Source: a bacterium M00.F.Ca.ET.205.01.1.1
GTDB lineage: Bacteria > Pseudomonadota > Alphaproteobacteria > Rhizobiales > Rhizobiaceae
Direction: 5' to 3'
DNA length: 64,000 nucleotides
Assembly: GCA_004791255.1 (NCBI GenBank)
Contig: SRUQ01000007.1
Location: forward strand, 62,001 to 126,000
In this document: piece after piece, positions 10,542-25,119 of the stretch
How the letters are laid out: each line of letters opens with the position of its first letter
Numbering within the stretch: the stretch's first letter is position 1
Program-made: the position numbers and the translations under genes
The notes under the pieces: model-generated
The model's input: the letters and a program-made list of their open reading frames with translations, nothing else
Database searches by the model: none
What the model was told of the DNA's origin: nothing

Positions 10542-10566
10542 CTAACAAAAACCAGAGGAGAAAAAC

Positions 10567-11037
10567 ATGTCGACCCATCGCGTTGTCAATACCGTGCAGT
10601 CTTCCATCCGCCGTGCTCTCCTGCTCTCCGCCTCGGCCTGCTTCCTGTCGCTGGGCGCGGCGCCGGTCCGCGCCGACGACTATGATGCAGCCATCAAGGA
10701 CATCCAGTCGACCATGGGTGGCGTACCAAGCTTTGTAAAGCAGTTCCCAAAGGCTGGCCTGCCCGGTGCATGGGCCGAGGTCAAGGCTATCGAACTCAGC
10801 GACAAGACGGCGTTGCCGCCTAAGGTCAAGTCGCTGATCTCGCTGGCGGTCGCGGCACAGATTCCATGCAACTATTGCATATGGTCGGATACGCAGGATG
10901 CCAAGCGCGCCGGCGCCACAGACGAAGAGATCCAGGAAGCCGTGGCAATGGCGGCGCTCACCCGCCACTGGAGCACCATCTTCAACGGCATGCAGGTCGA
11001 TTTCGACACGTACAAGAAGGAAATGGGCGGGCAATAA
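10567..11037 (+). CDS. Secreted carboxymuconolactone decarboxylase/AhpD-like protein
   Basis: The 156-residue product has a long signal peptide (ALLLSASACFLSLGAAPVRA, cleavage near residue 36). A CMD/AhpD fold follows, with the redox CxxC as PCNYCIW (about residues 100-106) and downstream EEIQEAVAMAALTRHW containing the conserved Glu and His. AhpD-type proteins are alkyl hydroperoxidases working through the CxxC pair. Here the signal peptide implies periplasmic action, which is less usual for the family. AGAGGAG gives a good ribosome-binding site. The gene is controlled by the operators described upstream. Confidence 0.85.
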   Translation: MSTHRVVNTVQSSIRRALLLSASACFLSLGAAPVRADDYDAAIKDIQSTMGGVPSFVKQFPKAGLPGAWAEVKAIELSDKTALPPKVKSLISLAVAAQIPCNYCIWSDTQDAKRAGATDEEIQEAVAMAALTRHWSTIFNGMQVDFDTYKKEMGGQ

Positions 11038-11067
11038 GCCGCTGGCAACGGTTGGCGCCCCTCCGCA

Positions 11068-11089
11068 GAGGCCCGCAATGGCGGGCCTC
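11068..11089 (+). terminator. Hairpin after the AhpD-like gene (no T-run)
   Basis: GAGGCCCGC (11068-11076) and GCGGGCCTC (11081-11089) form a perfect 9-bp stem with a 4-nt loop, 30 bp after the stop codon. There is no T-tract, so it may be a transcript-stabilising hairpin or a weak terminator. Confidence 0.5.
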
Positions 11090-11797
11090 TCAGCGCACCC
11101 GTGCGGACCGGCACTCGATCGCACCTCTCTACCTAAGCGATCAGTAGCTATGGCTAATTGACCATTAGCGGAATAAGGACGAACCTGTCGGCGCCTCTGC
11201 GGCTTTGGACGGAAATTCCGGCTGTTTTTAAGGATAAAGGTCGAGATACATGCGAAACCTACGGCATATTGAAGCTGATTTTGAACGTCTTGAAAATCTT
11301 TTTTGAGTCATTTCGAACTTACTTTTAAAGCATCCCTGACCTAAACTTTTTCTGAGCTGAGATTTTATTTTATTTTTCCACGATCACGTAAGTTTTGTAT
11401 TTTTTGCCAACAGCAGGCCAAAATCCGATGAATTTGAGGTGCGCGCCAGGGCTTCGGCGCCGGGATTAACCACCTGCGAGCGATTGTGGTTAAGGGATTG
11501 CTAATTTAGTTGACTAGGATAGCCACAGGTATATTTTTAAACTCGTTGGGATGTGCAATTTGCGCGAGCAATGGGCGATAGTGGCAACAAACGTGTAGTC
11601 GCGAAGTCGGGCATCGGGAAAACTGAGCGGCGATAGGCCGCGCCACGTCGGTCCTGCGAACTCAAAGAGCAATTGGCGCACATCAGAGATGGCGAGTCCG
11701 CGCAAGCGGAGGGTTTTGTCACGTCCGTAGGGGCTTGGCAGGGCAGTGCTTTGCCCTGTCGCGGGCGATGGTGTGCGAAGTGCGTAAGGGGAAGACC
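11090..11797. other. Long AT-rich intergenic region ahead of the glycan island
   Basis: About 700 bp without a credible gene. From about 11225 to 11420 the sequence is strikingly AT-rich, with runs such as TTTTATTTTATTTTT, in an otherwise GC-rich window. Downstream lies an inverted repeat ATTAACCAC (11465-11473) / GTGGTTAAG (11486-11494) and then the 15-mer shared with the processive glycosyltransferase promoter region. AT-rich islands with T-A steps in rhizobia are typical binding regions for Ros/MucR-type zinc-finger repressors of exopolysaccharide genes. That link is inference. Confidence 0.55.
11490..11515 (+). promoter_or_regulatory. Shared regulatory motif, copy 1 (TTAA-N7-CTAATTTAGTTGACT)
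   Basis: TTAA at 11490-11493, a 7-nt spacer, then CTAATTTAGTTGACT at 11501-11515. The same 15-mer with the same TTAA-N7 prefix occurs in opposite orientation at 22378-22403, upstream of the leftward processive glycosyltransferase. TTAA-N7-CTAA differs by one base from the CtrA consensus TTAA-N7-TTAA. It lies about 280 bp upstream of the uxs-like gene. Confidence 0.6.
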
Positions 11798-12832
11798 ATG
11801 AGTAAGGTTATCAAGGTTCTGAAACTCGGGGCTGGAACCAACAGAAGGGGCGCTCGCAGAAGTCGCGTATTGATCGCCGGGGGAGCAGGATTTCTGGGCT
11901 CGCATCTGTCCGAACGGCTGCTGGCCGACGGATACGAAGTCGTCGCGCTCGACAATTTCCATACCGGCAAGAAGTGCAATCTCGGCGGCATACTGAGCGA
12001 TCCGGCATTCAGATGCGTCGAGCATGACATCATCGATGCGCTTCCCTGGGACATTCCGGTCGACGAAATCTACAACCTCGCCTGCCCTGCCTCGCCGCCA
12101 CATTATCAGGCCGACCCGATCCATACATTCAAGACCAGCGTCTATGGCTCGTTGAACCTTCTGGAACTCGCCCGGCGCCACAATGCCAAGATCTTCCAGG
12201 CTTCCACTTCGGAGGTCTATGGCGATCCGCTGGTGCATCCGCAGCCGGAAAGTTACCTCGGCAATGTCAACACGCACGGTCCACGTTCCTGTTACGACGA
12301 GGGCAAGCGTTCGGCGGAGACCCTGTTCTTCGACTATTCGCGAACGTACGGCCTCGATGTCCGCGTCGCGCGGATATTCAACACCTATGGCCGCCGTATG
12401 CAGCCCGATGACGGCCGCGTAGTGTCAAACTTCATCGTCCAGGCGCTGCGCGGCGAAGACCTGACCGTTTATGGCAGCGGCATGCAGACACGATCGTTCT
12501 GCTACGTGGACGACCTGATCGAGGGCTTTGTCAGGCTTATGAATGCTTCAACACCGCCGCCGCACCCGGTCAATCTCGGCAACCCTGCCGAATTCACCGT
12601 CATGGATCTGGCCAAGCTGGTCGTCAACTCCACGAATTCCCGGTCGCGCATCGTGCATCGGCCGCTGCCCGTCGACGACCCCAGGCAACGCAGGCCCGAC
12701 ATCTCTTTTGCCAGGCAAAATCTCGGTTGGGAACCGACGATCAGCCTCAGCCAGGGCCTGGCCCGCACCGTGGAGTATTTCGATGCCCTGCTTTGCGGCG
12801 GCCGGTCGGTCAAGGAAGCCGCGGCGTCATGA
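11798..12832 (+). CDS. UDP-glucuronate decarboxylase (UDP-xylose synthase)-like epimerase
   Basis: The 344-residue protein is an extended-SDR nucleotide-sugar enzyme. The NAD-binding GGAGFLGSH is near residues 28-36. The run [13 protein letters not shown] ... DPIHTFKT is the diagnostic signature of UDP-glucuronic acid decarboxylases. The catalytic Tyr/Lys appear as YDEGKR. Bacterial Uxs converts UDP-glucuronate to UDP-xylose with NAD+. The ATG at 11798 has AAGGGGA upstream. The next gene, galE, overlaps its stop by 4 nt. Together they would feed xylose and galactose (or their derivatives) to the glycan genes downstream. Related sugar epimerases share the fold, so the product is likely but not proven. 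Confidence 0.85.
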
Positions 12833-13860
12833 CAGTCGCCGCCGTTCTCGTGACGGGCGGCGCCGGCTTCATCGGCAGCCACACCTGCAAGCTCTTGTCA
12901 GCTGCCGGGTATCTCCCGGTGGTCTATGACAATCTGAGCCGCGGCAACGAGAAATCCGTTGCTTGGGGTCCGCTTGTCATCGGCGATATCCGGGACCAGG
13001 ATACGCTGCAGGGGGCAATGAAGACCTATCGGCCAACGGCCGTCATTCACTTTGCGGCGCTGGCCTATGTCGGGGAGTCCGTTCGCGAGCCGGCCGAATA
13101 TTATTCGACCAATGTGACGGGCACCATCGCCGTGCTCGATGCCGCGCGTTCGAACTCCATCAAAAACATCATCTTCTCCAGCAGTTGCGCGACCTACGGC
13201 GTGCCGGATGCATTGCCCGTGCGCGAGACCTCCGCGCAAAATCCGATCAGCCCGTACGGACGCACCAAGCTGATGGGCGAGCAGATCATCGGCGACTACG
13301 CGGCCGCCTACGGGATGAAATACGCCATCCTGCGCTATTTCAATGCCTGCGGTGCCGATCCCGAGGGCGAGCTTGGTGAGTGGCATTCGCCGGAAACCCA
13401 CCTAGTCCCTAGGGTGCTCATGGCCGCATCGGGCATCATCGACGAGATCGAGGTTTTCGGCACGGACTACGACACATCGGATGGCACTTGCGTACGCGAC
13501 TATATCCATGTCAGCGATCTCGCCCGCGCCCATCTAAAGGCGCTCCTGCATCTGGAAGTCGGCCGCGAAAGCCTGTCGGTCAATCTCGGCACCGGGCGAG
13601 GTGTTTCGATCAAGGAGATCCTGCAGGCAGTCAGCCGCATGACCTCCCGACCCGTCCCGGCAGTCTACAGGACCAGGCGTCCCGGAGACCCGGCCGAACT
13701 CTATGCCGATCCGGCGAATGCGCGCGAACATCTTGGCTTTGTGCCAGAGCTTTCCGACATCGACACGATCGTCAAGACAGCCGCCCCGTTTTTTGGCCTG
13801 GCAACGAAATCGACGCCAATGCCGCAAACCGGGCGGGCAGAACCTCGCGCCGCTCAATAG
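12829..13860 (+). CDS. galE: UDP-glucose 4-epimerase
   Basis: The 343-residue product has GGAGFIGSH (residues 10-18), the GalE-typical [14 protein letters not shown] and FSSSCATYG, catalytic [34 protein letters not shown], and [14 protein letters not shown]. GalE interconverts UDP-glucose and UDP-galactose in the cytosol. It starts in an ATGA overlap with the uxs-like gene, so the two form one translationally coupled unit. Its stop is 1 nt from the stop of the convergent lipoprotein gene, leaving no room for a terminator between them. Confidence 0.92.
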
Positions 13861-13861
13861 C

Positions 13862-14281
13862 TCAGAGATAGCGGGCGTGGCAGCTCGCGCGTTGGCCAAA
13901 ACCGCTAGGGCTGCAGATATAAGGCGAACCGCCCAGGACCTTGCCGCCACCGACCGGATTGAAAGAGACTTTCACCGGGTCCAGCGCGTGGGCCTTGATC
14001 TGCTGTGGTGAGGCAAAAGCGTAACCTCGTCCAGTGATCCGTGTTGTGCTCGTCGCCAGGATCGATGGCTCGATTCTAAGCGAATGAGCCGTAGGCATGG
14101 CGTAGGCCGCCTGGACCGCAGGTTTGCTGCGGAGCGAGTAGACCACGGGCTTGGAGACCGAATTGGTTGTGGTCGCATCCATATTCTGACAGCCTGAAAT
14201 CATCGAAATGATCGCTGCGGCGGCAACAATAGATACGACATTTTTGCCTGGGCGGAATGCGCCCATTGCGGAATTGCTCAT
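13862..14281 (-). CDS. Small lipoprotein, paralogue A (SPSGFGQRASC family)
   Basis: The 139-residue product has an N-terminal hydrophobic stretch ending in a lipobox-like SMISGC (Cys near residue 31), so it is probably a lipoprotein. The middle is Ser/Thr/Ala-rich with no recognised fold. The C-terminus, PYICSPSGFGQRASCHARYL, is nearly the same as that of the gene at 19630-20037. Both also share upstream DNA and a GCAGGGGACA ribosome-binding region. The function is unknown. Two copies flank the GT39/UPF0104/GT2 genes, which suggests a role in glycan assembly or anchoring; this is inference. Confidence 0.75.
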   Translation of the reverse strand: MSNSAMGAFRPGKNVVSIVAAAAIISMISGCQNMDATTTNSVSKPVVYSLRSKPAVQAAYAMPTAHSLRIEPSILATSTTRITGRGYAFASPQQIKAHALDPVKVSFNPVGGGKVLGGSPYICSPSGFGQRASCHARYL

Positions 14282-14365
14282 CAGGTGTCCCCTGCGTCAA
14301 ATATAGGCCAATGGCGCGTTGCGACATATTTCGTGTTCGCCGCCTTCACGCCGTATGAACAGCAA

Positions 14366-14420
14366 CCACTCGCACATCACGCTGGAATATTAGACATCAC
14401 TAATTATTAAACTTCATGAA
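14366..14420 (-). promoter_or_regulatory. Conserved upstream block of lipoprotein paralogue A
   Basis: Read toward the gene, this block contains TTTAATAATTAG, then TCTAATAT, then GCGTGATGTG and GAGTGG. The same order (TTAATAA, TCTAATAT, GCGTGATGTG, AGTGG) occurs upstream of paralogue B at 20129-20180. TAATAT is a plausible -10. Such conservation between two loci 6 kb apart suggests shared control. Confidence 0.6.
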
Positions 14421-14652
14421 AGCCGTCTGGCAGGCTCACCGTCTCGTCGCCCTGTCAGATACAACGCGATCATCGGCAGTCCGCGCGCCGATTGCTCCAG
14501 CCGAACCGCTTGGGGCTTCAGCATAAATGATTCGCCAGTTCCTTGACAGGCGCCCTGCAAGAGCAGCCCTGCTGGTCGAATCAGAAACATCCGACGGGGA
14601 TCGCGAACCGCTCTATCTCTTTGTTTTGACGCAGTTTCCAAGGGAACGCGTT

Positions 14653-14702
14653 ACGCGCTTTTCCGGGAAAACCGTTTCACACTTTTCCTGGAATTGCTCT
14701 AA
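14653..14702. repeat. Rhizobial intergenic mosaic repeat fragment
   Basis: The segment with AAAACCGTTTCACACTTTTC and GGAATTGCTCT matches the recurrent rhizobial intergenic motif also present, in divergent form, at 19393-19437 (AAAACCGCTTCACGCTTTTC). It ends inside the stop codon region of the DUF995 gene. Confidence 0.6.
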
Positions 14703-15304
14703 TTCTTGGAACTGAGCAGCTTGCGGGCTTCTTCGAATTGTGCGGCCTTTGTGTCGCCCACTTCAAATTTCCGATGTTCGTCGGAAGGGTCCTCGGGAGA
14801 TCGCAGGAAACTGTACCACTTCCCATCCGGCTCCTTGCGCTGTTCGATGTTGCCGCCGTTGATGCGGTGGCTGTAGCAGGTGCGATGCTGCTCGCCGGCA
14901 TAGTTCTTGGACCGCCAGGCAAGGTCCATGCAGATCTTGCCGTCGTTGGTCACCAACCATTTGCCTTCCGCGAAGGAGGCCGAATCCTGTCTTGATGTCC
15001 AGGCCCGCAGCGGACGGCCATTCTTTCCAAAATAGGCCGCTCCATCTTTCCATATCCATGTGCGGTCGGCGTAGAGGATCGACAGCTCGAAGGCCGTTGG
15101 AACACTGGCAGTATCCGGCCCCGCGGGTCCGCTGTCTTTGACGGCAGCCGCGTGCGCCACTCCCGAGAGAACCGTCTGGCCGCAGAGGATCAGGAGAACG
15201 AGAAGTCGGGTGCCTGCCGGTCGACGAGGTTGCTTGCGCTGCCGATGGTCGACACGAAGCGGAGACAATCTGGTCAGAGCTATCGGCACAATTGGCGTTC
15301 GCAT
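14699..15304 (-). CDS. DUF995 family exported protein
   Basis: From the ATG at 15304 the product is 201 residues. It has a basic N-terminus and then a hydrophobic export signal (LLVLLILCGQTVLSGVAHA). The DUF995-type domain follows, with LYADRTWIWKDGAAYFGKNGRPLRAWTS, WLVTNDGKICMDLAW, TCYSHRINGGNIEQRKEPDGKWYSF as its conserved blocks. DUF995 proteins are periplasmic and common in Rhizobiales, often near polysaccharide genes; their function is unknown. The start is uncertain because no good ribosome-binding site is visible and a TTG start 27 codons earlier is open. A frameshifted relative lies at 24054-24538. Confidence 0.78.
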   Translation of the reverse strand: MRTPIVPIALTRLSPLRVDHRQRKQPRRPAGTRLLVLLILCGQTVLSGVAHAAAVKDSGPAGPDTASVPTAFELSILYADRTWIWKDGAAYFGKNGRPLRAWTSRQDSASFAEGKWLVTNDGKICMDLAWRSKNYAGEQHRTCYSHRINGGNIEQRKEPDGKWYSFLRSPEDPSDEHRKFEVGDTKAAQFEEARKLLSSKN

Positions 15305-15534
15305 GTTTGCTTGGCCCGAGGCAGCACCATCAGCGCCTTGGCGCCCATGCCAACTATTTAACAGTCGCGAGAACGGTGATGTCAACCTTTACGACGCGGA
15401 GGAACAACAACCATTCGAGACACGCGCGCGGCCTGCACTCGTCAAAATTAAGGATTGCGCGGTATATTCCTACGTCTCTGACAATCGCGCGTGACAAGAA
15501 GATCCGCGGACGTCGGGGAGGACGCGGTTTTCAA

Positions 15535-17163
15535 ATGACGGAAGACCCGGAATTGGAACAGGTCGAAGGTCAGCAATACCTGCAGCAGTCGATCGATCGG
15601 GGCGTTGCTGCTCGCGACTACCTGAGCCCCAACACGGCGATCTTGCTCGGAATCCTGTTCATTGCGGTCGTGTTCAGATTCCACAACATCACCTTGCCGC
15701 TGGTCGATGCCTTCAGCTGGCGCGAGACAAGTACGGCAATGATGGCCGACAATTTTCAACAGCGCAGCTGGAACATCTTCTTCCCCGAGGTCAGTTGGAC
15801 CGGACCCGGGCCAAGCTATCAGGGCCGCGAGTTCCAGATCATCAGCTATCTGACGGCCTTGCTCTACGAGGCGTTTGGCTGGCACGACTGGTTTGGCCGC
15901 ATGGTCGCCGCCTTGTTCGGGCTGGTGACGGTCTTTTCGCTGCACCGGCTGACAGCTCTGTGCTGGGGCGAAACACACGCGCATGCCGCGGCTCTGGCCT
16001 ACGCGCTGATGCCCGCGACGATCATGATCGACAGTTCGTTTCTTCCCGACCCCTCGATGCTGGCCCTGGTGACAACAGGTGTCTGGCTGTTCGCCAAGTA
16101 CTGGGCCGGCGGCAGCGGCTGGCTGTTGCCGCTGGCCACCGTCAGCTTTTCGCTGGGTGCGCTGGCAAAGCCGCCGGGGCTGGCCGCAGGCGCCGTCATC
16201 TTCTTCCTGATGGTCTGCTGGATCCGGGAGAACAGGCGAAAGCAGGCAGTCAAGGTCTTCGTAGCAGGGCTTCTGAGCCTCGCCTGCATCGCCGCCTATT
16301 TCAGCTGGGCCATCTATCTCGGCCGCAGCTATCCCCCCTATCACGTCGCGGGCAGCGGCTACATCTGGGATTCCGGCTTCGGGACATTCTTCAGGAACAG
16401 CTTCTACTTCAAATCCGTGTGGAACACCTCGGTCTGGTGGTTCTACGGCTATCCGTTCATGGCACTGATCGCGGTCGGCTTCTGGATGCCGCCTCGAGCC
16501 GCCGAAGACCCGAAGCAACGCACCCTTTCGGCCATTCCCTATGTCTGGCTGGCGGCGGCCATGGTCGTCTATCTGGCGGCTGCGCGCGAGATCACCAACA
16601 ATCCGTGGAACTACCACATCTTCCATGTGCCGTTCGCGATGTTCTGCGGCCGCGGCGCGCTTTTGCTGGTTACGCTCGCATCGGGAACCGTTCTGTCGCC
16701 GGCGGTCGTGCTGCGCGCGATCTGCCTTGCTGTCGTCACGCTCGTCTGGTCGACCTTCCCCCTTATTGCAACCATGAAGGCGCCGATCGCCATGGACGGC
16801 AAGCTGCTAGGCGAGGACCTGGCGCGGCTCGCCAAGCCCGGCGATCTCGTCATCGCCATTGCACCAGAGGTCGGCGATCCCGTCCCCGTTTATTACAGCC
16901 GAACGCGCGGCTGGGTGTTCCCGCCCGGCGGCGGCGACGTCGAATGGTCCAAATTCGTCGCCGACGATGCGACTGCGGTCGCGCAGCTCGAGGACTTGCG
17001 CGCGCAAGGCGCGGACCTGTTCGGTGTCGCCAAGAGCGCGGCCGACAAGAAGGACCGACTGTTCATGGAGCATCATAAAGGGGTGGTCGAGTATCTGGAC
17101 AAAACCGCAACCAAGCTTGTGGATTCGGACACGCTGCTAATCTATAGACTTGGCAGTCCCTGA
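15535..17163 (+). CDS. GT39-family (ArnT/PMT-like) membrane glycosyltransferase
   Basis: The 542-residue product has a polar N-terminus of about 32 residues and then roughly 10-11 membrane segments. The first periplasmic loop carries an acidic residue and VDAFSWRE (D58, R63, E64), like the catalytic loop of GT-C/GT39 enzymes. A C-terminal soluble region of about 120 residues follows. GT39 enzymes take sugar from a polyprenyl-phosphate carrier on the periplasmic face and transfer it to lipid A, glycan or protein. The ATG at 15535 has GGGAGG 13 bases upstream. The partner GtrB-like and UPF0104 genes follow, suggesting one pathway. Confidence 0.8.
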   Translation: MTEDPELEQVEGQQYLQQSIDRGVAARDYLSPNTAILLGILFIAVVFRFHNITLPLVDAFSWRETSTAMMADNFQQRSWNIFFPEVSWTGPGPSYQGREFQIISYLTALLYEAFGWHDWFGRMVAALFGLVTVFSLHRLTALCWGETHAHAAALAYALMPATIMIDSSFLPDPSMLALVTTGVWLFAKYWAGGSGWLLPLATVSFSLGALAKPPGLAAGAVIFFLMVCWIRENRRKQAVKVFVAGLLSLACIAAYFSWAIYLGRSYPPYHVAGSGYIWDSGFGTFFRNSFYFKSVWNTSVWWFYGYPFMALIAVGFWMPPRAAEDPKQRTLSAIPYVWLAAAMVVYLAAAREITNNPWNYHIFHVPFAMFCGRGALLLVTLASGTVLSPAVVLRAICLAVVTLVWSTFPLIATMKAPIAMDGKLLGEDLARLAKPGDLVIAIAPEVGDPVPVYYSRTRGWVFPPGGGDVEWSKFVADDATAVAQLEDLRAQGADLFGVAKSAADKKDRLFMEHHKGVVEYLDKTATKLVDSDTLLIYRLGSP

Positions 17164-17378
17164 TGGAGCCGGACCGGCAAGAGGCTTTGTGGGCCCGAGA
17201 TTGGGCAAGGGCAAGAATGCGGCGGTCGCCGGCGGTTGCGCAAGCTCCGCACGCCCGGGCCTGACAGGCAATGCGGTCGACCGGCGACCCGATCGGCTAC
17301 CAATGCCGTGGATCTTGAGATACAGCACGCCGCGGCAAAGGGAACTCAAGGGCGCAAGCCTGCGCAGGAATTGTTGAA

Positions 17379-18308
17379 TTGTTGAAGCGAGTGATTTCGA
17401 TCGTCGTGACCTTGGCCCTGCTGGCCTGGCTCGCCAGCGACGCGCGCTGGCGGATGGTCGGCGATGCCTTCGACCGTATCACGCTCGGCACGTTCGCAGT
17501 GGCGACGATCGCGTTTTTCGTCACCTATGTCTTGCGTGCGTTGCGCGTCTGCGACGAGTTCCGCGATGAGGTGCATGGCCGATTTGGCGCCTGCCTGCGC
17601 GTCATTCTGATTCACAATGCGATGATCAACGTCATACCGTTCCGCGGCGGCGAGACCGCCTTTCCGCTGCTCCTGCGCCAGGTCTTCGGTGTACCGATCA
17701 TGCGCGCCAGCGCCTCGCTGCTTTGGTTCAGGCTGCAGGACGCTTTCGTCGTAGGGGTGCTGGCCCTGGCGGTGTGGCCGGGCCTGCATCCGGCAATGAG
17801 GATCGCGGGCATAGTCGCCTTGATCGCCGCGGCCTGGTACCTGCCGCGCTGGGCGCGCGCGCCGCATGACTGGGCCGAGCGCAGCAGGCTCGTGGCGAAG
17901 CTCGGCCTGCTGCGCGACACCTTCACCGAGGCCACCGGGCGTTCGCGCTACGGCTGGTGGTGGACGATCGCCAACTGGTCGCTGAAGCTCGCCGTGCAGG
18001 GATGGCTTCTGGCATTGATGTTGGGGACATCGTTTACCACGGCTTTTCCAGGCGTCATCGGGGCCGAAGGCGCCGCCATACTACCGGTGCAAGGCGTCGC
18101 CGGCTTCGGCACCTATGAAGCGGGAGCGGCGGCGGCATTGCTCACCTCCGGAATCGCGATGAAGAGTGGCCTGCAAGCGGCACTGGCGCTGCACCTGTTC
18201 ATCTTTTGCTCGGCTATCGCCACGGGCGCGGTCGCCTGGCTGTTTCCCTCGAAATCGACGCTGCCGGAGAACCCGGCCGTCGGACCTGCAAGGAAGCCAT
18301 CCCAATGA
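17379..18308 (+). CDS. UPF0104/lysylphosphatidylglycerol-synthase-like membrane protein
   Basis: The 309-residue polytopic protein matches the LPG-synthase transmembrane (UPF0104) family, with HNAMINVIPFRGGETAFPLLLRQVFGVP near residues 78-106 and GVIGAEGAAILPVQGVAGFGTYEAG near 226-250. Family members include lipid flippases/synthases and proteins that accompany glycosyltransferases. Here it lies between a GT39 gene and a GtrB-like gene, so a flippase for a polyprenyl-phosphate sugar is plausible. It starts with TTG (AGGA 9 bases upstream). The next gene overlaps its stop by 4 nt. Confidence 0.8.
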   Translation: MLKRVISIVVTLALLAWLASDARWRMVGDAFDRITLGTFAVATIAFFVTYVLRALRVCDEFRDEVHGRFGACLRVILIHNAMINVIPFRGGETAFPLLLRQVFGVPIMRASASLLWFRLQDAFVVGVLALAVWPGLHPAMRIAGIVALIAAAWYLPRWARAPHDWAERSRLVAKLGLLRDTFTEATGRSRYGWWWTIANWSLKLAVQGWLLALMLGTSFTTAFPGVIGAEGAAILPVQGVAGFGTYEAGAAAALLTSGIAMKSGLQAALALHLFIFCSAIATGAVAWLFPSKSTLPENPAVGPARKPSQ

Positions 18309-19357
18309 ACGTATTGCCCATCCCTGCTTCGGAACTGCCTGACGGCGCGGTGATGCCTGATCATACGCTGTCCATCGTCGTGCCAATGTACAACGAGGCC
18401 GAGAACGTCGAGCCGCTGCTGACACGGATTCACCAGGCGATGGAACACTATGGCCGGCCGTGGGAGGTGGTGCTGGTCGATGACGGCAGCACCGACGCGA
18501 CGGTCAGTGAGATAAGGCGACTGGCGGCGCATTACGGTTCGCATGTGCATGCAGTCGAGCTGGTGCGCAACTACAAGCAGACAGCCGCGATGCAGGCAGG
18601 CATCGACGCGGCACGTGGCGATGTCATCGCCACGATCGACGGCGATCTGCAAAACGACCCCTTCGATATCCCGCGCATGGTCTACCGCCTGCTGAGCGAG
18701 GATCTCGACCTGGTGGTCGGCTGGCGCAAGGACCGCCAAGAGGGGTTTTTGATGCGCAGACTCCCCTCTCGGATCGCCAACGCGCTGATCGCACGCGTCA
18801 CCGGCGTGCGCCTCAAGGACTATGGGTGCAGCCTCAAGGTCTATCGCGGCAACGTCATCCGTAGCGTCAAGCTCTATGGCGAGATGCACCGATTCATCCC
18901 GGCCTGGCTGGCCACGGTGACGACCCCAAGACGCATCGCGCAGGAGGTGGTGACGCACCATGCCCGCATCCACGGCGAATCCAAATACGGCATTTCGCGC
19001 ACCTTCAGGGTCGTTCTCGATCTGGTGTTCATGTATTTCTTCATGCGCTACCGCACCCGGCCCGGGCATTTCTTCGGCGGCATCGGCATCGTGCTTGGCG
19101 CGCTGGGTTCGCTGATCCTTGCCTATCTGCTTTGCCTGAAGCTGCTTTTCGCGGAAGACATCGGAACACGCCCGATGCTGTTCACCGGCTTCTTCCTGCT
19201 CATCGCCGGGGTGCAGATGGTGACGTCGGGCGTCCTGGCGGAAATGCTGGCACGCGTCTATCACGAGGCGAACGGATCATCGGCTTATGTCGCGCGACCG
19301 CGGCCAGAGCCCCGAGACAATGATGGTGACGGTTGGTACCGCCCTGGAGTCGGATGA
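18305..19357 (+). CDS. GtrB/DPM1-like family 2 glycosyltransferase
   Basis: The 350-residue protein has an N-terminal GT-A domain with SIVVPMYNEAENV (residues 23-35), the nucleotide-binding DDGSTD (59-64), the metal-binding DGDLQNDP (112-119) and KDYGCSLKVYR. Two C-terminal membrane segments follow (HFFGGIGIVLGALGSL and the next). This layout is that of GtrB/ArnC/DPM1 enzymes, which move a sugar from its nucleotide onto polyprenyl phosphate at the inner membrane. ATGA overlap with the UPF0104 gene implies coupled translation. The product would be the donor for the GT39 enzyme upstream; the sugar is unknown. Confidence 0.87.
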   Translation: MNVLPIPASELPDGAVMPDHTLSIVVPMYNEAENVEPLLTRIHQAMEHYGRPWEVVLVDDGSTDATVSEIRRLAAHYGSHVHAVELVRNYKQTAAMQAGIDAARGDVIATIDGDLQNDPFDIPRMVYRLLSEDLDLVVGWRKDRQEGFLMRRLPSRIANALIARVTGVRLKDYGCSLKVYRGNVIRSVKLYGEMHRFIPAWLATVTTPRRIAQEVVTHHARIHGESKYGISRTFRVVLDLVFMYFFMRYRTRPGHFFGGIGIVLGALGSLILAYLLCLKLLFAEDIGTRPMLFTGFFLLIAGVQMVTSGVLAEMLARVYHEANGSSAYVARPRPEPRDNDGDGWYRPGVG

Positions 19358-19437
19358 TTTCAGGTCGAATCGGCCTGAAATCTGACTCGCTCGCCAAAAC
19401 CGCTTCACGCTTTTCGGGATCATGCTCTTGCAGAGCG
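19356..19437. repeat. Rhizobial mosaic intergenic element at the end of the GT2 gene
   Basis: GATTTCAGG (19356-19364) and CCTGAAATC (19374-19382) are perfect inverted arms. They are followed by AAAACCGCTTCACGCTTTTC and GGGATCATGCTC, modules typical of rhizobial mosaic elements. The element begins within the stop codon of the GT2 gene and may serve as its 3' hairpin. Confidence 0.65.
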
Positions 19438-19629
19438 CCCGTTTCCAGGACGATCTAGGAAGGAACGGCAAGGTACGTCGACCGGTATCGCCAGCAACGG
19501 CCGGAGGGCAAGAGGTAAGGCGCAACACCTGCGCCACCCTCTCGCCCTCGGCGCGCGCCCCCCGGCGAAGACGGACCAGCGGCTCCCTCAGTCAATTCAC
19601 GCCGCCGCTTTCGGGTCTGATATTCTGAA

Positions 19630-20037
19630 CTAGTAACGCGAACGGCAGCTGGCGCGCTGGCCGAAGCCGCTCGGGCTGCAAATCCAGGGCGAATGGCCCA
19701 GGAACGGACCGCCTGGGCTGAAGGAAACCTTCACCCGCGCCGGGCTGCCGACCCGCGGCGGCCGCACAAAGGCCGCATAGGCCTCCTCCCTCGTGCGCGT
19801 CACGCTGGTTAGCTGCGTGAGCGCCTTGCGGTAAAGAACCTTCTTCCCGACATTATGAATCTTGTTGACGTGGTGGGTATTGTTGCCGAACCCTTGGTCG
19901 ATCCGGCCGTTGATCGAACCGGTTCTGGTCGTGTCCGTGGCCTGACAGCCGGATACCATCGAGACCAACGCGATGGCAGCAGCAGCTAAGGCATGTTTCC
20001 TGCCTGCGCTGGCCAGACTTTCCGCAAACTTGTTCAT
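19630..20037 (-). CDS. Small lipoprotein, paralogue B (SPSGFGQRASC family)
   Basis: The 135-residue product starts MNKFAESLASAGRKHALAAAAIALVSMVSGC with a clear lipobox (VSGC, Cys near residue 31). It ends in FLGHSPWICSPSGFGQRASCRSRY. The C-terminal block, with two or three Cys, is shared with paralogue A at 13862-14281; the middle is divergent. The ATG at 20037 has AGGGGA about 7 bases upstream. The function is unknown; it is probably anchored in the outer membrane or periplasm. Its upstream DNA matches that of paralogue A. Confidence 0.78.
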   Translation of the reverse strand: MNKFAESLASAGRKHALAAAAIALVSMVSGCQATDTTRTGSINGRIDQGFGNNTHHVNKIHNVGKKVLYRKALTQLTSVTRTREEAYAAFVRPPRVGSPARVKVSFSPGGPFLGHSPWICSPSGFGQRASCRSRY

Positions 20038-20128
20038 CGCCTGTCCCCTGCCCTGGAAAACAGCTTGGTTGTGCGCGGACGGTATACTTTGTACCCGCCG
20101 TTTTCCGCGCCTTGTGAATGGCCGTTTT

Positions 20129-20180
20129 CCACTCACATCACGCCCGTATATTAGAGGGGACTTATTAAGATTCGTGCAAA
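20129..20180 (-). promoter_or_regulatory. Conserved upstream block of lipoprotein paralogue B
   Basis: Reading toward the gene: CTTAATAA, then TCTAATAT, then GCGTGATGTG and AGTGG. This matches the block at 14366-14420 in order and near-identical spacing. It lies about 100-140 bp upstream of the start codon. Confidence 0.6.
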
Positions 20181-20409
20181 CAGCATGATGAACACGGTCT
20201 TTCGCTGTTCGTTCGGATATGATGGAAAAATTCAGGCGGTTGGATCGAGGCCCCGACGGACGGGCTTCGCCATAGAATGCTTGGGAGAACGACGCATTTG
20301 CGCCGGCGGCAAAATAGCGGCCGGTGCTCGGGCTGGCATGCTCGGAGGGTTGTTTTCGGCTTTACGAGACGCTCAACACGAGGCGCTTAGAGCATGATGC
20401 CGACATGCA
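20181..20409. other. Intergenic remainder with a repeat fragment
   Basis: This stretch between the leftward glycosyltransferase 3' end and the lipoprotein promoter holds no credible gene. AGAGCATGATGCCGA near 20390-20404 is a fragment of the rhizobial mosaic repeat, close to the stop of the processive glycosyltransferase. Confidence 0.4.
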
Positions 20410-22287
20410 TTAGCGCCGCGTTTCCCAACCTGGATCGAAATAGAAATTGCGGGCCCCGATGTTGCCTTGGCCGGCGCCGGAAACCACATAGGCGATGCGG
20501 ACGATGCGGACGCCGCCGGCGCCTTGCTGCAGCCCGTATACGCCCTCCATGCCACGATCGTAGAAGCCCACGGCCGGCACGATGATCGCCAGCATGGCGA
20601 GCGAAGCCTGCAAGGCGACTATCGTCGCATTGGCGCGCAGCGGGATCTTGTTCTCGATGACGTGCCTTACGACGATGACCACCACCAGAAGCCCGTAGAG
20701 AAAGGCGTTGAAGGCGGCGAACCAATAGAAGCCGGTGGCATCGAAGGGATGCTCTACGAGCAGGACGGGCAGCGCAGCACCGATGGCCAACACCACATAG
20801 GGAGCGAAGGCGCGGGCCGGCAGAAGCTGCTTGGGGCCGCTGCCCTTGGGCGTGACGCGGAAATCCACGAACGACTTGGTCACATGATCGCGCAGCGACG
20901 ACAGCGTGCCGGCCAGCACCCAAGGCCAGCGCGCGAAGAACAGGAACAGCGTGCCTTCCCAGCTGATCGTCTTGGCCGTGATCGGCCGCGACACGCCGAA
21001 AGCCTTCAGCATCATCACCAGGCCGACCAGGGCGGCCGCGTTCGGCAGGTAGTAGAACAGGAAATCGAGATACGTGACATTAGCGAAGTTGCGCCCGGTG
21101 AAGAGCGCATACATCGGCATTACGTACATCAGCAGCGCGAAGACGGCGAATAGCGGATACCAGAGCTGGCAAAAGAGGAACTGGAACCTCAACCGCGGCG
21201 GCAGCTTGGGAAAATAGGTGGGCGAATATTCGAGCATGATCGTCATCAGGCTGCGCGACCACTGGAATTCCTGGGTGACAAGATCAGCAAAGGTTTGCGG
21301 TCCGTCACCATGGGCGATGGCATCTATCGCATGCACGCCGTGCCATCCGGCCGCGTTGATCAGCATCGAGGTGGAATGATCCTCGGCCAGTTCCGGACCG
21401 AGACCGCCCGCCTGCTTGAGCGCCTTGGTTCGTACGGCATAGTGCGAGCCGATGCACAGCGGCGCCCCGTGGCCGGTATGGCCTGACTGCAACGGGCCGT
21501 GGAACATCCCTTCTGGAAACAGCCGGCCGCGCGCTGACCAGCTTTCGGCGGCATTGTTGTCGCAGATGCTCGGCGCCGACACGTAGCCGACCGTGGGATC
21601 GGCGAAGGGGTAGAGGATTTCCCTGAGATAGGTCGGCGTCGGCACATGGTCGGCGTCCATCTGGGCGACGAAATCATAACGCTGATATCCATAGTGGTCG
21701 TAGAAGAACGCCAGGTTGCCTTCCTTGCAGCGGGTACGGCGCGGCCAGCTCTTGCGGTGATAGTCTTCCCTGCCGCGCCGCGTCGAGATCTGCACGCCAT
21801 GAGCATCGCACCAGCGAACCGTCTCCTCGGACGGGTCCTCGTCGGCCAGCCAGCTGTCATGCGGATAATCCTGCGCAAGCATGGCTTCCAGCGTGCGCGC
21901 GACCACGGCAAAGGGTTCGGACGGAGCCTTGGTCACCACCATGGCGACACGCGAACGCTTCGGGATATTGTAGAGCTTGGACGGTTTCCTCGACGCGTGC
22001 ACGTTGAGCAGGAAGTACATCGGCATCAACGTCAGCCAGGCCAGCACAAGCGTGGCGAAGGTGAATGCCCCGATATATTCGATATGTTCGGGTTTCAGCC
22101 ACCAGATCCAGAAAAAGCCGAGGGTGAGGAACCAGAAGGCCAGGCCCAGCCGCAGGATCCATTGGCGAACGGGAGACAGCACAGGCACAAGAAAAGAGCC
22201 CTTGCGCGCAGAGGCGACCAGAGCCGTCCCAGGTCGCCGCGCCAGCTTGCTCGCACCACCGATGCCTGCATCCGCGGAAACGCTCAT
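20410..22287 (-). CDS. Processive family 2 glycosyltransferase (cellulose-synthase-like)
   Basis: The 625-residue inner-membrane protein has two N-terminal membrane segments (about 43-63 and 72-95). A cytosolic GT-A domain carries D149/D151 (SWLADEDPSEET), DADH (211-214), AEDHS (301-305) and QEFQW (339-343). Several C-terminal membrane segments follow. That is the architecture of cellulose, hyaluronan or glucomannan synthases, which polymerise and export a beta-glycan. The usual QxxRW appears as QEFQW, with the Arg two positions later (WSRS). The start is uncertain: ATG at 22287 or GTG at 22302. It is transcribed alone from a promoter region with the shared 15-mer. Confidence 0.85.
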   Translation of the reverse strand: MSVSADAGIGGASKLARRPGTALVASARKGSFLVPVLSPVRQWILRLGLAFWFLTLGFFWIWWLKPEHIEYIGAFTFATLVLAWLTLMPMYFLLNVHASRKPSKLYNIPKRSRVAMVVTKAPSEPFAVVARTLEAMLAQDYPHDSWLADEDPSEETVRWCDAHGVQISTRRGREDYHRKSWPRRTRCKEGNLAFFYDHYGYQRYDFVAQMDADHVPTPTYLREILYPFADPTVGYVSAPSICDNNAAESWSARGRLFPEGMFHGPLQSGHTGHGAPLCIGSHYAVRTKALKQAGGLGPELAEDHSTSMLINAAGWHGVHAIDAIAHGDGPQTFADLVTQEFQWSRSLMTIMLEYSPTYFPKLPPRLRFQFLFCQLWYPLFAVFALLMYVMPMYALFTGRNFANVTYLDFLFYYLPNAAALVGLVMMLKAFGVSRPITAKTISWEGTLFLFFARWPWVLAGTLSSLRDHVTKSFVDFRVTPKGSGPKQLLPARAFAPYVVLAIGAALPVLLVEHPFDATGFYWFAAFNAFLYGLLVVVIVVRHVIENKIPLRANATIVALQASLAMLAIIVPAVGFYDRGMEGVYGLQQGAGGVRIVRIAYVVSGAGQGNIGARNFYFDPGWETRR

Positions 22288-22377
22288 ACACTTACTCGCC
22301 ACTATCTGGGGCTTCAGCCGAGCAATGGCTGAAAGCTCCCAAAAACCCGGCGGTAGAATCCGTCAGCGCTTTCTTAG

Positions 22378-22403
22378 AGTCAACTAAATTAGTGATTGGT
22401 TAA
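22378..22403 (-). promoter_or_regulatory. Shared regulatory motif, copy 2 (TTAA-N7-CTAATTTAGTTGACT)
   Basis: On the minus strand TTAA (22400-22403), a 7-nt spacer, then CTAATTTAGTTGACT (22378-22392), identical to the copy at 11490-11515 in all 15 bases and spacing. It lies about 90 bp upstream of the glycosyltransferase start. It points toward its gene, as copy 1 does. Confidence 0.62.
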
Positions 22404-22430
22404 GTATGTTGCTTCAGATCTGGTTAACTA

Positions 22431-22530
22431 AGGCACGTCGCGTCGGAACGGATTCATGCGACCGCTTTGGGCCTTTGTTTTCATGCATGTCGTTGTCGCA
22501 AAACCGAGTTCACTTTTAGGCGGCATGCAT
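22431..22530. repeat. 100-bp rhizobial mosaic repeat, copy 1
   Basis: Shares with 24569-24669 the ordered modules GCACGTCGCGTC, GATTCA, TTTGTTTTCATGCATG, GTCG, AAACCGAGT and ACTTTT, ending in a CATG motif. It lies in a non-coding region between the processive glycosyltransferase and GH26 genes. Confidence 0.75.
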
Positions 22531-22683
22531 TAACGCTTTGAATCGCGGGAGGAATCCCGTCGAACAATCGCCGCGGTCAGCTCCGGAATGAAGCGCCGAC
22601 AAAATTTCAGCGTTGGAGAATTCGCCGTCGGGGCCAGCATGATCTGGCCAGGAGCAGCATTAACCATGTTGCGGCTGTCAAGG

Positions 22684-22698
22684 TTAAGCAACCGTTAA
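22684..22698 (+). promoter_or_regulatory. CtrA-like box upstream of the GH26 gene
   Basis: TTAAGCAACCGTTAA is an exact TTAA-N7-TTAA match to the alphaproteobacterial CtrA consensus. TTAACCAT at 22660-22667 is a further half-site, and CTTAATTTAGCTAGG just downstream (about 22730-22743) resembles the shared 15-mer. The hydrolase starts 300 bp further on. Such short motifs can occur by chance. Confidence 0.45.
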
Positions 22699-22997
22699 TT
22701 GCACTTGACTCTTGGCCCCGACCGGCTCTTAATTTAGCTAGGGATCATATATCGGATTATTGACGCGAATTTGTGAGTATCGCGGCGAAATCTCTCTCTT
22801 TGGCTCCTGAATGTCGGTGCTTTTGAGAGATAATTTTGGGCCCTGGTGCGAAGGTTCGCACGCCGCCCAATGGTCGCTCCGAATTCCCATGGATTCCGCC
22901 AACAACCGATCGGGTTGGTAAGTCGTGTCGATCAAGCATCGATGCGCGCGGGCGAAGCCTCAACTTCGGTGAGATGTCGAGGCTATGGGAGGTGAAC

Positions 22998-23921
22998 ATG
23001 AAACACTTCGCAGCAAGTGCAATTGCGATCGCGCTGGCTTTGGGCGGAAGCGTCGCGTTGCCGACAGCGGGAGGCGCCGGCTCCATAGCCGGCACCGACC
23101 CCGTCCAGACGAGTAGCGCAGCTTCGGCGTTCGGGTCCTATGATCCCTACGGCGACTTCAGTGCCGACAAGACTGCCAGCATCGAGGAGTTGTTCCTGCC
23201 GTGGGAAGACGTCGATCTGGCGAGCCTTCCCTTGGCCGACGCCTATGCCCTTCAGCGCGGGCGTTCGCTGTTGATCACCATCGAGCCGTGGACCTGGTCG
23301 AAGGACTGGCGCATCACTCCGCCCGAGTTGCGTGACGGCATATTGAGCGGTCGGTATGACGCCAACATGCAGGCGATCTGCGATCTGGTAGGCCAGATGA
23401 AGAGCCCGGTGACCATTCGCTGGGCGCAGGAAATGGAAGACACGAACGGCCGCTTCACCTGGGCCAACTGGGCGCCCAAGGACTGGATCGCCGCCTACCA
23501 CCGCGAAGTCGATCTTTGTCGCAAAGCCGCACCCGCGGCAAAATACATGTGGTCGCCCAAGGGCGAGGCGGGTCTGGAGAAGTACTATCCCGGCGACAAC
23601 TATGTCGACGTGATCGGCCTGTCGGTTTTCGGCCTGCAGCAGAAGGACAATGACGAGAGCGGTCACGATCGTACCTTCGCCGAGGCGCTGAAGCCCGGCT
23701 ATGACCGCGTCGCAGGGTTCAACAAGCCGATCGTGGTGGCGGAACTCGGCTATGTCGGCAAGCAGGACTATGTCTCGAAGTGGCAGGGAGATACCCGCAA
23801 GTCCTATGCGGAGTTCCCGGCGCTGACTTCGGTCGTCTACTTCAACCAGAAGGAAGTGTGGCCGTGGCTGGGTGGCTATGGTCTGCCCGACTGGAGGGTG
23901 ACCCACAACGTCCTGCCGTAG
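22998..23921 (+). CDS. GH26-like secreted glycoside hydrolase (mannanase-type)
   Basis: The 307-residue product has a signal peptide (AIAIALALGGSVALPTAGGAG) and a GH26-type TIM barrel. The acid/base Glu lies in TIRWAQEMEDTNGRFTW (E145) and the nucleophile Glu in PIVVAELGYVG (E249). YMWSPKG and DVIGLSVFG fit the family in between. GH26 enzymes mostly cleave beta-1,4-mannans, and similar proteins accompany bacterial exopolysaccharide synthases as trimming or release enzymes. The ATG at 22998 has GGGAGG upstream. Its position divergent from the processive synthase suggests that the synthase product is its substrate; this is inference. Confidence 0.82.
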   Translation: MKHFAASAIAIALALGGSVALPTAGGAGSIAGTDPVQTSSAASAFGSYDPYGDFSADKTASIEELFLPWEDVDLASLPLADAYALQRGRSLLITIEPWTWSKDWRITPPELRDGILSGRYDANMQAICDLVGQMKSPVTIRWAQEMEDTNGRFTWANWAPKDWIAAYHREVDLCRKAAPAAKYMWSPKGEAGLEKYYPGDNYVDVIGLSVFGLQQKDNDESGHDRTFAEALKPGYDRVAGFNKPIVVAELGYVGKQDYVSKWQGDTRKSYAEFPALTSVVYFNQKEVWPWLGGYGLPDWRVTHNVLP

Positions 23922-23934
23922 GCCCATCGCGCTG

Positions 23935-23961
23935 ATCCATCCCGACACGATCGGGATGGAT
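23935..23961 (+). terminator. Hairpin terminator after the GH26 gene
   Basis: ATCCATCCCGA (23935-23945) and TCGGGATGGAT (23951-23961) form a perfect 11-bp stem with a 5-nt loop, 14 bp after the stop. Only a short T-tract follows, so termination may be partial. Confidence 0.6.
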
Positions 23962-24053
23962 TTCCATCTCCGTGTTTGATCGTGTTCCATCCCGAACCAA
24001 CGGTTCGAGACGATGGTTGAGACGTGGCATAAATCAGCCTTTGGAGTAGTTCC

Positions 24054-24538
24054 GTGAAACGCGTACTGGGAAATTGTCTGGGGGTGGCATTCGCCTGCTC
24101 CGTTCTTGTTCTTGGCTTCCAGGTCCCTGCGATGGCCAAGTCCGCAGCGAGAATCGCTGAGCAGGCGCAAAACGCCGCAGTGGTTCCTGACGAGGGCGTC
24201 TACCAGATCTATCAGGCCATTCGTGGCTGTGGGGCAAGAACGGCGCCGCGTTCTTTGCCGTCAGGCAGCGGCAGCTCGACGCCTGGACTTCCAACAAAGG
24301 CAAGCCGGGCTATGGCGACGGCATGTGGTTCATCCCCGGCGGCGGCAAGATGTGCTATCACGCGAAATGGTACGGCTCATGGGGCGTGAAGGGCTCGACG
24401 ACCTGCTTCGAGCATCGCCAGGCGGGCAATGTGGTCTACCAGCGCAAATCTCCGGATGGCGACTGGTACGTTTTCAAGAGATTGAAATACGGCGACTACG
24501 TCACCACGAAACAGACCCGGATCAAGGCAAAGCAGTAG
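24054..24538 (+). pseudogene. DUF995-like gene with a frameshift
   Basis: The start is intact: a signal peptide (VAFACSVLVLGFQVPAMA) and then VPDEGVYQIYQ in frame 1. The typical DUF995 continuation, WLWGKNGAAFFAVRQRQLDAWTS, MWFIPGGGKMCYHAKW, TCFEHRQAGNVVYQRKSPDGDWYVF, is found only in another frame, and this runs to the stop at 24538. Adding one base near 24216-24217 would join both parts into a full-length protein of about 161 residues. It is a real recent frameshift or a sequencing error. The relative at 14699-15304 is intact. Confidence 0.78.
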
Positions 24539-24568
24539 AACCTGCCGTCCGCGAGAATCCGCTGGCCT

Positions 24569-24669
24569 AAAGCACGTCGCGTCCAAACAGATTCACGCGA
24601 CGCGCTTTAGCTCTTTGTTTTCATGCATGATGTCGTCCGAAACCGAGTCGAACTTTTCGGCATGATGCT
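24569..24669. repeat. 100-bp rhizobial mosaic repeat, copy 2
   Basis: Contains GCACGTCGCGTCC, the inverted arms ACGTCGCG/CGCGACGCG, TTTGTTTTCATGCATGATG, and AAACCGAGTCGAACTTTTCGG. It shares these modules in order with 22431-22530. It ends directly at the stop codon of holC. Confidence 0.75.
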
Positions 24670-25119
24670 CTATGCCTTCCGCTCCCACCGGCGATCGGGT
24701 GTCTGCTGCCAATAGGTGACGGCGTGGCCGGCGTCCTTCATCACTTTCCAATGCCCGCGCGCCGCCTCGACCTGGCCGGCATCGTGGCCGTCGAACAGGA
24801 ACACGGCGCGCTCGTAGCCGCCGAGGTCCGGTGGTGATGCGCCATCGACCAGAAAGCGTATCTGTGCCGCGTTCGCATTGCCCTCCCCTGTGGTCAACAG
24901 GATCGGCTGCTCGGCGGGATAGGCCTCGCGGTCGGTGGCGTGCGCCAGGAATGAATCGTCGCGAAATGTCCACAGATGCTGGTCGAGCGCGTCGCGCCGT
25001 TCCTCGGTGCCGGTCTGCACCACGGCGCGCCAGCCGCGATCGACGCTGCGCTCCAAAAGGCCCGGGAGCGCATCTTCCAGCGTCGATTCGGTCAGATGGT
25101 AGAACAGCACGTCAGCCAT
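24670..25119 (-). CDS. holC: DNA polymerase III chi subunit
   Basis: The 149-residue product fits the HolC family: DVLFYHLTESTLEDALPGLLERSVDRGWRAVVQTG at the start, then DQHLWTFRDDSFLAHA, QPILLT and NAAQIRFLVDGA, RAVFLFDG. Chi links the clamp loader to single-stranded DNA-binding protein at the replication fork. In Rhizobiales it is regularly found next to the leucyl aminopeptidase gene, as here (9 bp downstream of pepA). Confidence 0.9.
   Translation of the reverse strand: MADVLFYHLTESTLEDALPGLLERSVDRGWRAVVQTGTEERRDALDQHLWTFRDDSFLAHATDREAYPAEQPILLTTGEGNANAAQIRFLVDGASPPDLGGYERAVFLFDGHDAGQVEAARGHWKVMKDAGHAVTYWQQTPDRRWERKA

Follow-up and report, generated by a model that had tools for sequence, protein, structure and literature searches.

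What polymer is made, and under which regulator, by an island of envelope-glycan genes that resembles a known operon in its parts and differs from it in its arrangement? The island lies in the window, by which we mean the whole 64-kb stretch of DNA analysed (G000:C232:62001-126000), within a 6.9-Mb Mesorhizobium genome. It reads uxs and galE forward, a small lipoprotein gene (lipA) and DUF995a in reverse, GT39, UPF0104 and an ArnC/GtrB-like gene forward, a second lipoprotein gene (lipB) and a GT2 synthase gene in reverse, and finally GH26 and a second DUF995 gene (DUF995b) forward. We consider it somewhat more probable than its contrary that this island is a rearranged, dispersed Mesorhizobium form of the aps locus, responsible in Sinorhizobium meliloti for the arabinose-containing polysaccharide (APS), and, taken jointly with this, that CtrA controls it through CtrA-like operators and that the GT39, UPF0104 and ArnC-like genes interleaved in it form a separate cassette.

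Correspondence with the aps operon

The S. meliloti APS operon has the order uxs1-uxe-apsS-apsH1-apsE-apsH2 and is activated by CuxR (PMC7902896), through which c-di-GMP acts (PMC9495663). Both papers present APS as a recently described rhizobial polysaccharide tied to aggregation and attachment. The core of the island corresponds gene for gene to compact loci of other rhizobia, that of S. meliloti included, and to the published operon: six homologous genes are common to both, encoding Uxs, the GalE-like epimerase, the GT2 synthase, two DUF995 proteins and GH26, and a downstream lipoprotein with the CxPSGFG motif is shared as well. The Uxs and GalE-like products are 65% and 59% identical, respectively, to those of the S. 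meliloti locus (L003), and over 93-97% of its length the synthase, for which no second copy (ApsS) was found elsewhere in the genome, shares 58-60% identity with those of Sinorhizobium. In tblastn searches against plasmids the synthase was found at this same identity in Sinorhizobium, with some records annotating galE beside it, and GH26 relatives were found in Rhizobium, Phyllobacterium, Sinorhizobium and others. The order uxs-galE-GT2-DUF995-GH26-DUF995 is seen in the annotated loci of two S. meliloti plasmids and of Phyllobacterium; an AraC-type or helix-turn-helix regulator gene lies upstream in R. leguminosarum and Phyllobacterium, and an unannotated relative of it upstream in the S. meliloti locus.

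The loci compared are the best 80 of 158, picked by similarity to the window synthase, plus plasmid loci, and their counts are not population frequencies. They sort into a compact form (47 loci), the arrangement seen in Sinorhizobium, Rhizobium and Phyllobacterium, and a dispersed one (37, counting the window), and the two part on a single fully supported branch of the synthase tree; L011, whose 3.8 kb hold no GH26, is counted in neither. All named synthase relatives of at least 73% identity are labelled Mesorhizobium, except for one 'Rhizobiales bacterium'. When L014 and L036, cut by contig ends, are set aside, the 35 complete dispersed loci all have uxs, GT2, GH26 and at least one lipoprotein gene (the two lipoproteins are paralogues whose best-hit labels sometimes swap, and are counted in this way), and 34 of them have galE, which is in two pieces in L010. 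Each DUF995 gene is likewise found in 34 of the 35, as L026 has no clear DUF995a and L040 gave no clear outcome for DUF995b, whose presence was scored with an S. meliloti query. Absence of CuxR from a locus refers throughout to the fetched flank, of 10 kb at most. Core gene order is near-constant in these 35 loci, and the differences printed are mostly paralogue labels and the presence or absence of the cassette. Across all 37 dispersed loci, CuxR is found in none, a lipoprotein in 35, the GtrB-like gene in 27 and GT39 in 21, against a CuxR relative in 39, a lipoprotein in 20 and neither GtrB-like gene nor GT39 in any of the 47 compact loci.

Since the core is met again in 35 complete dispersed loci, and in 47 others as a compact operon, its clustering is not due to chance, and this recurrence bears out the view of the first-pass annotation, made from the sequence alone, that a processive GT2 and a hydrolase belong together in one surface-glycan locus. 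The lipoproteins go with the locus, as that annotation held, and all the genes it named were confirmed by reading-frame, Pfam, NCBIfam and PDB-sequence searches. Its expectation that the genes would neither scatter independently in related genomes nor match an already characterised locus held for a part of them each time: the core clusters and the cassette is separable. Likewise, its statement that no described system has the full composition stands for the interleaved cassette, which is foreign to aps, and falls for the core, which matches that operon.

The island also differs from the S. meliloti operon. It is split into units on both strands, as are the other complete dispersed loci, instead of forming one co-directional operon; no CuxR gene or CuxR-type box is found nearby; three of its promoters carry a CtrA-like composite operator; the GT39/UPF0104/ArnC-like genes are interleaved among the others; and one DUF995 gene is broken. 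BgsA, the mixed-linkage beta-glucan synthase, and BcsA are processive membrane GT2s as is the island synthase, but their partner genes differ, and Pfam lists no PilZ domain for the island protein. If the correspondence to aps extends to function, Uxs would turn UDP-glucuronate into UDP-xylose and the GalE-like epimerase UDP-xylose into UDP-arabinose (as their families and S. meliloti counterparts suggest), the membrane synthase would polymerise and export a pentose-containing chain, the exported GH26 would trim or release it, and in the envelope it may be acted on by the small lipoproteins and the predicted barrels of DUF995.

Some of the related loci deserve mention on their own. In L045, L053 and L055 a UDP-glucose dehydrogenase (Ugd) gene sits inside the compact operon, between GT2 and DUF995 or GH26, where it would supply UDP-glucuronate to Uxs. 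Two aps-like loci stand under non-rhizobial labels, L060 (Candidatus Udaeobacter) and L075 (Bacillus subtilis); the latter record is probably mislabelled or contaminated, because its synthase is near-identical to a rhizobial one. On pSmeSM11b (L004) the operon lies between transposase genes of a conjugative plasmid, without CuxR beside it, and the locus can therefore move; the other large plasmid of that strain also carries a synthase.

A composite operator at three promoters

One composite operator, TTAACC-N18-TTAA-N7-YTAA, is common to the uxs, GT2 and GH26 promoters, and this is a new observation. It is placed 5-6 bp ahead of the -35 box, which gives TTAACC-N18-TTAA-N7-YTAA-N5/6-TTGAC as the full architecture. 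A sequence was first seen by eye before uxs and GT2, and a search of the whole genome allowing three mismatches finds it only at these two places; within the window, TTAA-N7-YTAA is confined to the three promoters. All 19 fixed bases are present in 33 of 35 uxs, 29 of 37 GT2 and 32 of 38 GH26 upstream regions (the last including L002, which is a truncated copy of the window and is dropped elsewhere), while the upstream regions of DUF995a, lipA, lipB, GT39 and DUF995b reach 14 of 19 at best, the same as shuffled sequence. The 37 dispersed loci (777 kb) hold 89 exact copies, all of them before uxs (33), GT2 (29) or GH26 (27), and 104 copies, still at these three genes only, when one mismatch is allowed; the 47 compact loci (961 kb) hold none, exact or with one mismatch.

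Outside the island, the 39-bp core led to the flagellin genes. In the window's genome it occurs exactly at four sites, three in the island and one at flagellin genes, with four further sites at one mismatch (the control gives one); a one-mismatch site lies upstream of a Pal-like gene adjoining a TolB gene. In 61 Mesorhizobium genomes there are 129 exact sites in 51 genomes, one to four in each, and none with the reversed-pattern control; the 31 sites whose gene context was covered, in 30 fetched loci, lie at flagellin genes (19, among them L129, which is truncated where its contig ends), uxs (8), GT2 (2) and GH26 (2). The wider family gives 33 sites in 25 of 151 genomes, two of these Mesorhizobium, with 16 sites in 13 of the 151 under the reversed-pattern control. 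Thirty of these family loci were fetched: flagellin genes account for 13 (two in Mesorhizobium, 11 outside the genus) and Pal-like genes of the OmpA family for four (L147, L151, L152 and L165); FtsK, TPR, ParA-like, Tad-like and OmpR-type response regulator (L172) genes and the window's own uxs are met once each; two sites are near other genes (L158, solute-binding protein; L166, FeeM), and L144, L155, L156, L169 and L170, among which only L144 was searched, have no assigned gene. In L166 (1610-2362) the site lies about 70-110 bp before the N-acyl amino acid synthase (FeeM) gene and may be there by chance.

Most probably, to judge from the operator's bases and its neighbours, it is phosphorylated CtrA that binds this shared operator. 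CtrA is the candidate because TTAA-N7-TTAA equals the published CtrA box, whose S. meliloti consensus is TAA-N7-TTAAC and for which sites are predicted there at flaA, flaC, flaD and ftsK (PMC3616915), and because the same composite is found at flagellin and some Pal-like genes. Among known or predicted CtrA targets the composite is clear for flagellin, repeated for Pal-like genes and seen once for ftsK, in a family search that has a chance background. What the island has in common with the CtrA regulon of Rhizobiales is the TTAA-N7-TTAA box near a sigma70-type -35, with flagellin and Pal-like genes among its other sites; what differs is a polysaccharide synthase locus as the target and an extra TTAACC half-site at a fixed 18 bp. 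In Agrobacterium PdhS2, most likely via CtrA, sets motility against adhesive polysaccharide (PMC7003649), and many genes of the envelope and of cell division are bound by CtrA in Brucella (PMC10787603). No paper in the collection searched joins 'CtrA' with 'arabinose-containing polysaccharide'.

The compact loci carry a box of another kind. GATAA-N6-GGAT-N7-TAACGACA, with one mismatch at most, is conserved in 29 of the 47, with 28 of the 29 sites at uxs, and is found in none of the 37 dispersed loci; we infer it to be the CuxR site. Among the 61 genus genomes, seven have a compact synthase, each with a CuxR relative at 48-53% within 3 kb on the same contig, and the box adjoins in three of the seven (G005, G053, G054). 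No CuxR relative is found at E 1e-60 in 20 of the 28 genomes with a dispersed synthase, and therefore the dispersed locus cannot generally depend on CuxR.

A second CuxR type (at least 84% identical to that of the window's genome) occurs in 17 of the 61 genomes, the window's own among them, and never near a synthase. Control of the island by CuxR was considered and rejected, as the CuxR-type box is near this orphan relative, on another contig, and not in the island. There (L096, G000:C199:148000-167900) the orphan gene adjoins one for a GGDEF-EAL protein, with boxes at 10723-10752 and 2145-2174 and with SpoIIE phosphatase, methyltransferase and acyltransferase genes as neighbours. In all 17 genomes the box comes in pairs or threes, mostly near that gene, although some of the boxes of G052 and G019 stand on other contigs, and orphan gene and boxes together may constitute a second CuxR regulon.

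The switch shared with flagellin suggests that the coat is timed by a cell-cycle regulator and not by the usual c-di-GMP regulator. We would accordingly propose, tentatively and at slightly less than even chances, that the pathway exists in two regulatory forms, a compact operon adjoining CuxR and, in Mesorhizobium, a set of dispersed genes with the composite operator and a CtrA-timed polymer.

Other pathways, glycans and regulators

The GT39/UPF0104/ArnC-like genes had been taken by the first-pass annotation to decorate the same glycan. The synthase would then make the backbone, the ArnC-like and GT39 enzymes would decorate that backbone in the periplasm with a lipid-linked sugar, and the lipoproteins would aid assembly; in agreement with this, the three genes occur in fixed position and orientation in 21 of the 35 complete dispersed loci, and four other loci (L174-L177) keep uxs-galE with UPF0104-GtrB, without synthase or GH26, so that pentose donors might feed the cassette. 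These four cases are the best remaining argument for a metabolic link through shared UDP-pentoses. Against it, none of the 47 compact loci has a GtrB-like gene or GT39, and of the complete dispersed loci, 35 in number, 27 have UPF0104 and the ArnC-like gene and eight lack them, with no GT39 found in six of the 27. An ArnC-like gene of 83% identity or more occurs in 32 of the 61 genus genomes, the dispersed synthase in 28 and both in 22, which leaves six with the synthase only and ten with the ArnC-like gene only (one of the ten, G007, has a compact synthase). Some synthase-less genomes have no uxs nearby either, as L179-L182 hold UPF0104-GtrB without adjoining uxs, and in L180 this pair lies upstream of holC-pepA, the same placement as that of the window island. 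The island site is thus a variable slot; moreover, no exact operator copy stands ahead of any cassette gene. A single pathway joining synthase and cassette is therefore improbable, and as a part of the core pathway the cassette is rejected on account of its absence from the compact loci, its separate occurrence and its lack of an exact operator copy. We take it for an optional lipid-linked-sugar module, independent of the core or loosely linked to it. In common with the ArnC/ArnT and GtrB-type transfer systems it has an ArnC-like GT2, encoded near a PMT_2 membrane transferase, that carries a DGD motif and, at its C-terminus, two predicted membrane segments. This GT2 falls below the NCBIfam ArnC equivalog cut-off (193 bits vs 529), and where those systems have a flippase of the GtrA or ArnE/F type, the cassette has UPF0104.

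Should the core of the island make its own polymer, this could still be a glycan other than APS, as the clade of dispersed synthases may use another sugar. The identity of 58-60% to the Sinorhizobium synthase and the long branch in the tree would allow it, and the accessory genes differ: Ugd is inside the three compact operons examined, and among the dispersed loci examined two have a sulfatase-CBM60 gene and one an acyltransferase gene. Nevertheless, the same two nucleotide-sugar enzymes and the same GH26, DUF995 and lipoprotein families are found in both clades, and we consider another glycan unlikely. That the locus is a functionless, decaying remnant in the window strain, for which the frame-broken DUF995b could speak, is highly improbable: the remaining core genes have open frames, the operators are exact, and the frame change, in a gene open in 30 of the 36 other dispersed loci and, by further search, in five of the remaining six (not L040), is possibly a draft-assembly error. 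As to the regulator, Rem, a flagellar regulator of the OmpR family, resembles CtrA, and it or another OmpR-type protein could own the operator, with the polysaccharide following the flagellar hierarchy and not the cell cycle. Flagellin genes are indeed the most widespread carriers of the composite, one site (L172) stands before an OmpR-type response regulator gene, and the family has few other targets, some of which fall within the chance background; but the Pal-like sites in several family genomes and the one ftsK site fit CtrA better, the operator core equals the published CtrA box, and Rem is reported to act on genes of class II, flagellins belonging to class III (PMC8429497). We consider Rem, the main rival of CtrA, or another OmpR-type regulator an unlikely owner.

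Several points weigh against a CtrA-controlled form of aps as we propose it. The composite is stricter than the plain CtrA box and could therefore belong to Rem or some other regulator of the OmpR type, as the L172 site would fit; some of the family sites must be due to chance, given the number of control sites (those at ftsK, Tad-like, ParA-like and other genes may be), and the CtrA argument is weaker for it. Uxs1 of S. fredii is listed among the targets of the silencer MucR (PMC9957244), and so other regulators act on the pathway. The reading of the CuxR-type box is partial, as no more than 28 of the 47 compact loci have it ahead of uxs with one mismatch allowed, and no more than three of the seven compact loci of the genus have it beside them, and the window's genome still has its CuxR relative elsewhere. 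The names apsS, apsH1, apsE and apsH2 were assigned by gene order only, one DUF995 gene of the window strain is broken, and the synthase tree, being midpoint-rooted, gives no direction for which arrangement came first.

Features of the island and the biology they may imply

The coordinates of genes and operators are collected in the table. The island is flanked by a TetR-like/AhpD-like pair on one side and by holC-pepA-lptF-lptG on the other, as these genes are named from a reading of the sequence.

Table. Genes and operator sites of the island, in window coordinates, with the match, motif or genome position that supports each.
Feature	Position	Strand	Support
Operator upstream of uxs: TTAACC-N18-TTAA-N7-CTAA-N5, then -35 TTGACT	11466-11515	+	G000:C232:73466-73504
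Uxs-like UDP-glucuronate decarboxylase (UDP-xylose synthase), uxs1 counterpart	11798-12832	+	PDB 2b69
GalE-like UDP-sugar 4-epimerase, uxe counterpart	12829-13860	+	NCBIfam galE 396.6 bits, cut-off 262.3
Small lipoprotein A (lipA)	13862-14281	-	Lipobox ISGC by sequence reading; C-terminal CxPSGFGx4CxxR
DUF995 protein (DUF995a), predicted exported small beta-barrel	14699-15304	-	PF06191 134.3 bits
GT39-like (PMT_2) membrane glycosyltransferase	15379-17163	+	PF13231 36.7 bits, cut-off 26.1
UPF0104 (LPG_synthase_TM) membrane protein	17379-18308	+	PF03706 64.4 bits
ArnC/GtrB-like GT2, polyprenyl-phosphate glycosyltransferase	18305-19357	+	PDB 9bhc ArnC, E 3e-50
Small lipoprotein B (lipB), paralogue of lipoprotein A	19630-20037	-	Alignment
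Processive GT2, ApsS-type synthase	20410-22287	-	BcsA-like, E 3e-21; DADH and AEDHS motifs
Operator plus -35 upstream of synthase	22378-22427	-	G000:C232:84389-84427
Operator (TTAA-N7-TTAA) plus -35 upstream of GH26	22660-22710	+	G000:C232:84660-84698
Exported GH26 glycosidase	22998-23921	+	Pfam 23.2 bits over 20.2, match only 38 residues
Second DUF995 gene (DUF995b), broken by frame change	24054-24540	+	PF06191 101.9 bits on 3' part

The uxs and galE-like genes are coupled by a 4 bp overlap, and the nearest solved relative of the Uxs product is UDP-glucuronate decarboxylase 1 (E 1e-108). The GH26 protein passes the gathering score of Pfam Glyco_hydro_26 with a short match, its best solved relative is the beta-1,3-xylanase 2ddx (E 1.5e-7), and it has two candidate catalytic glutamates, in WAQE and AELGY. 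No PDB sequence matches the GT39-like protein at E 0.01.

Sulfatase-like proteins with a C-terminal CBM60, a domain that Pfam describes as xylan-binding, are found at four related loci (L031, L033, L175 and L178); in L031 and L033, and by gap size also in L030 and L039, the sulfatase-CBM60 insert lies between GT2 and the lipoprotein gene. These proteins and the likeness of GH26 to a beta-1,3-xylanase are weak signs of a pentose chain. L174, L175 and L178 encode very large proteins that join GT4-type and GT2 domains, several with DUF6212, near uxs-galE, in genomes having no synthase.

The AlphaFold2 (AF2) model of DUF995a, with a mean predicted local distance difference test (pLDDT) score of 78.8, predicts a small exported beta-barrel, with no Foldseek match under E 0.001. 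A structural aligner gave lipocalin- and avidin-like barrels among its matches, at a Z of at most 7.0, too weak for a family claim, and the model is consistent with a ligand-binding role but does not prove one; a literature search on DUF995 found nothing beyond a rice DUF740 gene study. Lipoproteins A and B are 39% identical, have the C-terminal CxPSGFGx4CxxR in common and, as far as lipoprotein A is concerned, match no Pfam family above its cut-off. Their family occupies 86 places in 86 plasmid records, one copy per record and 77 of them Sinorhizobium, and where the listed records annotate it, they call it 'hypothetical protein'.

The leaders of uxs and GH26, estimated at about 250 nt, mostly drift, except for one near-invariant short block in each: at 11550-11570 around GTGCAATTTGCGCGAG before uxs (35 relatives) and at 22760-22788 around TTGACGCGAATTTGTGAGTATCGCGGCGA before GH26 (37 relatives). 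The blocks are possibly an RNA element or a second operator. Two intergenic stretches flanking GH26-DUF995b (22337-22540 and 24504-24680) are 81% alike over about 95 bp and resemble Rfam BASRCI27 below its gathering score; Rfam at E 0.5 gave four matches over 9000-26000, all below gathering scores.

If a CtrA-timed, dispersed form of aps is indeed what the island represents, its polymer would be made in a window of the cell cycle set by CtrA, probably specific to a cell type, together with the flagellum or opposite to it, and a secreted polymer would be tied to the same switch as flagellin. Such a wholesale exchange of second-messenger for cell-cycle control would make a clear natural example of one regulator replacing another, and the CxPSGFG lipoprotein family and DUF995 would be candidate envelope parts of the APS system.

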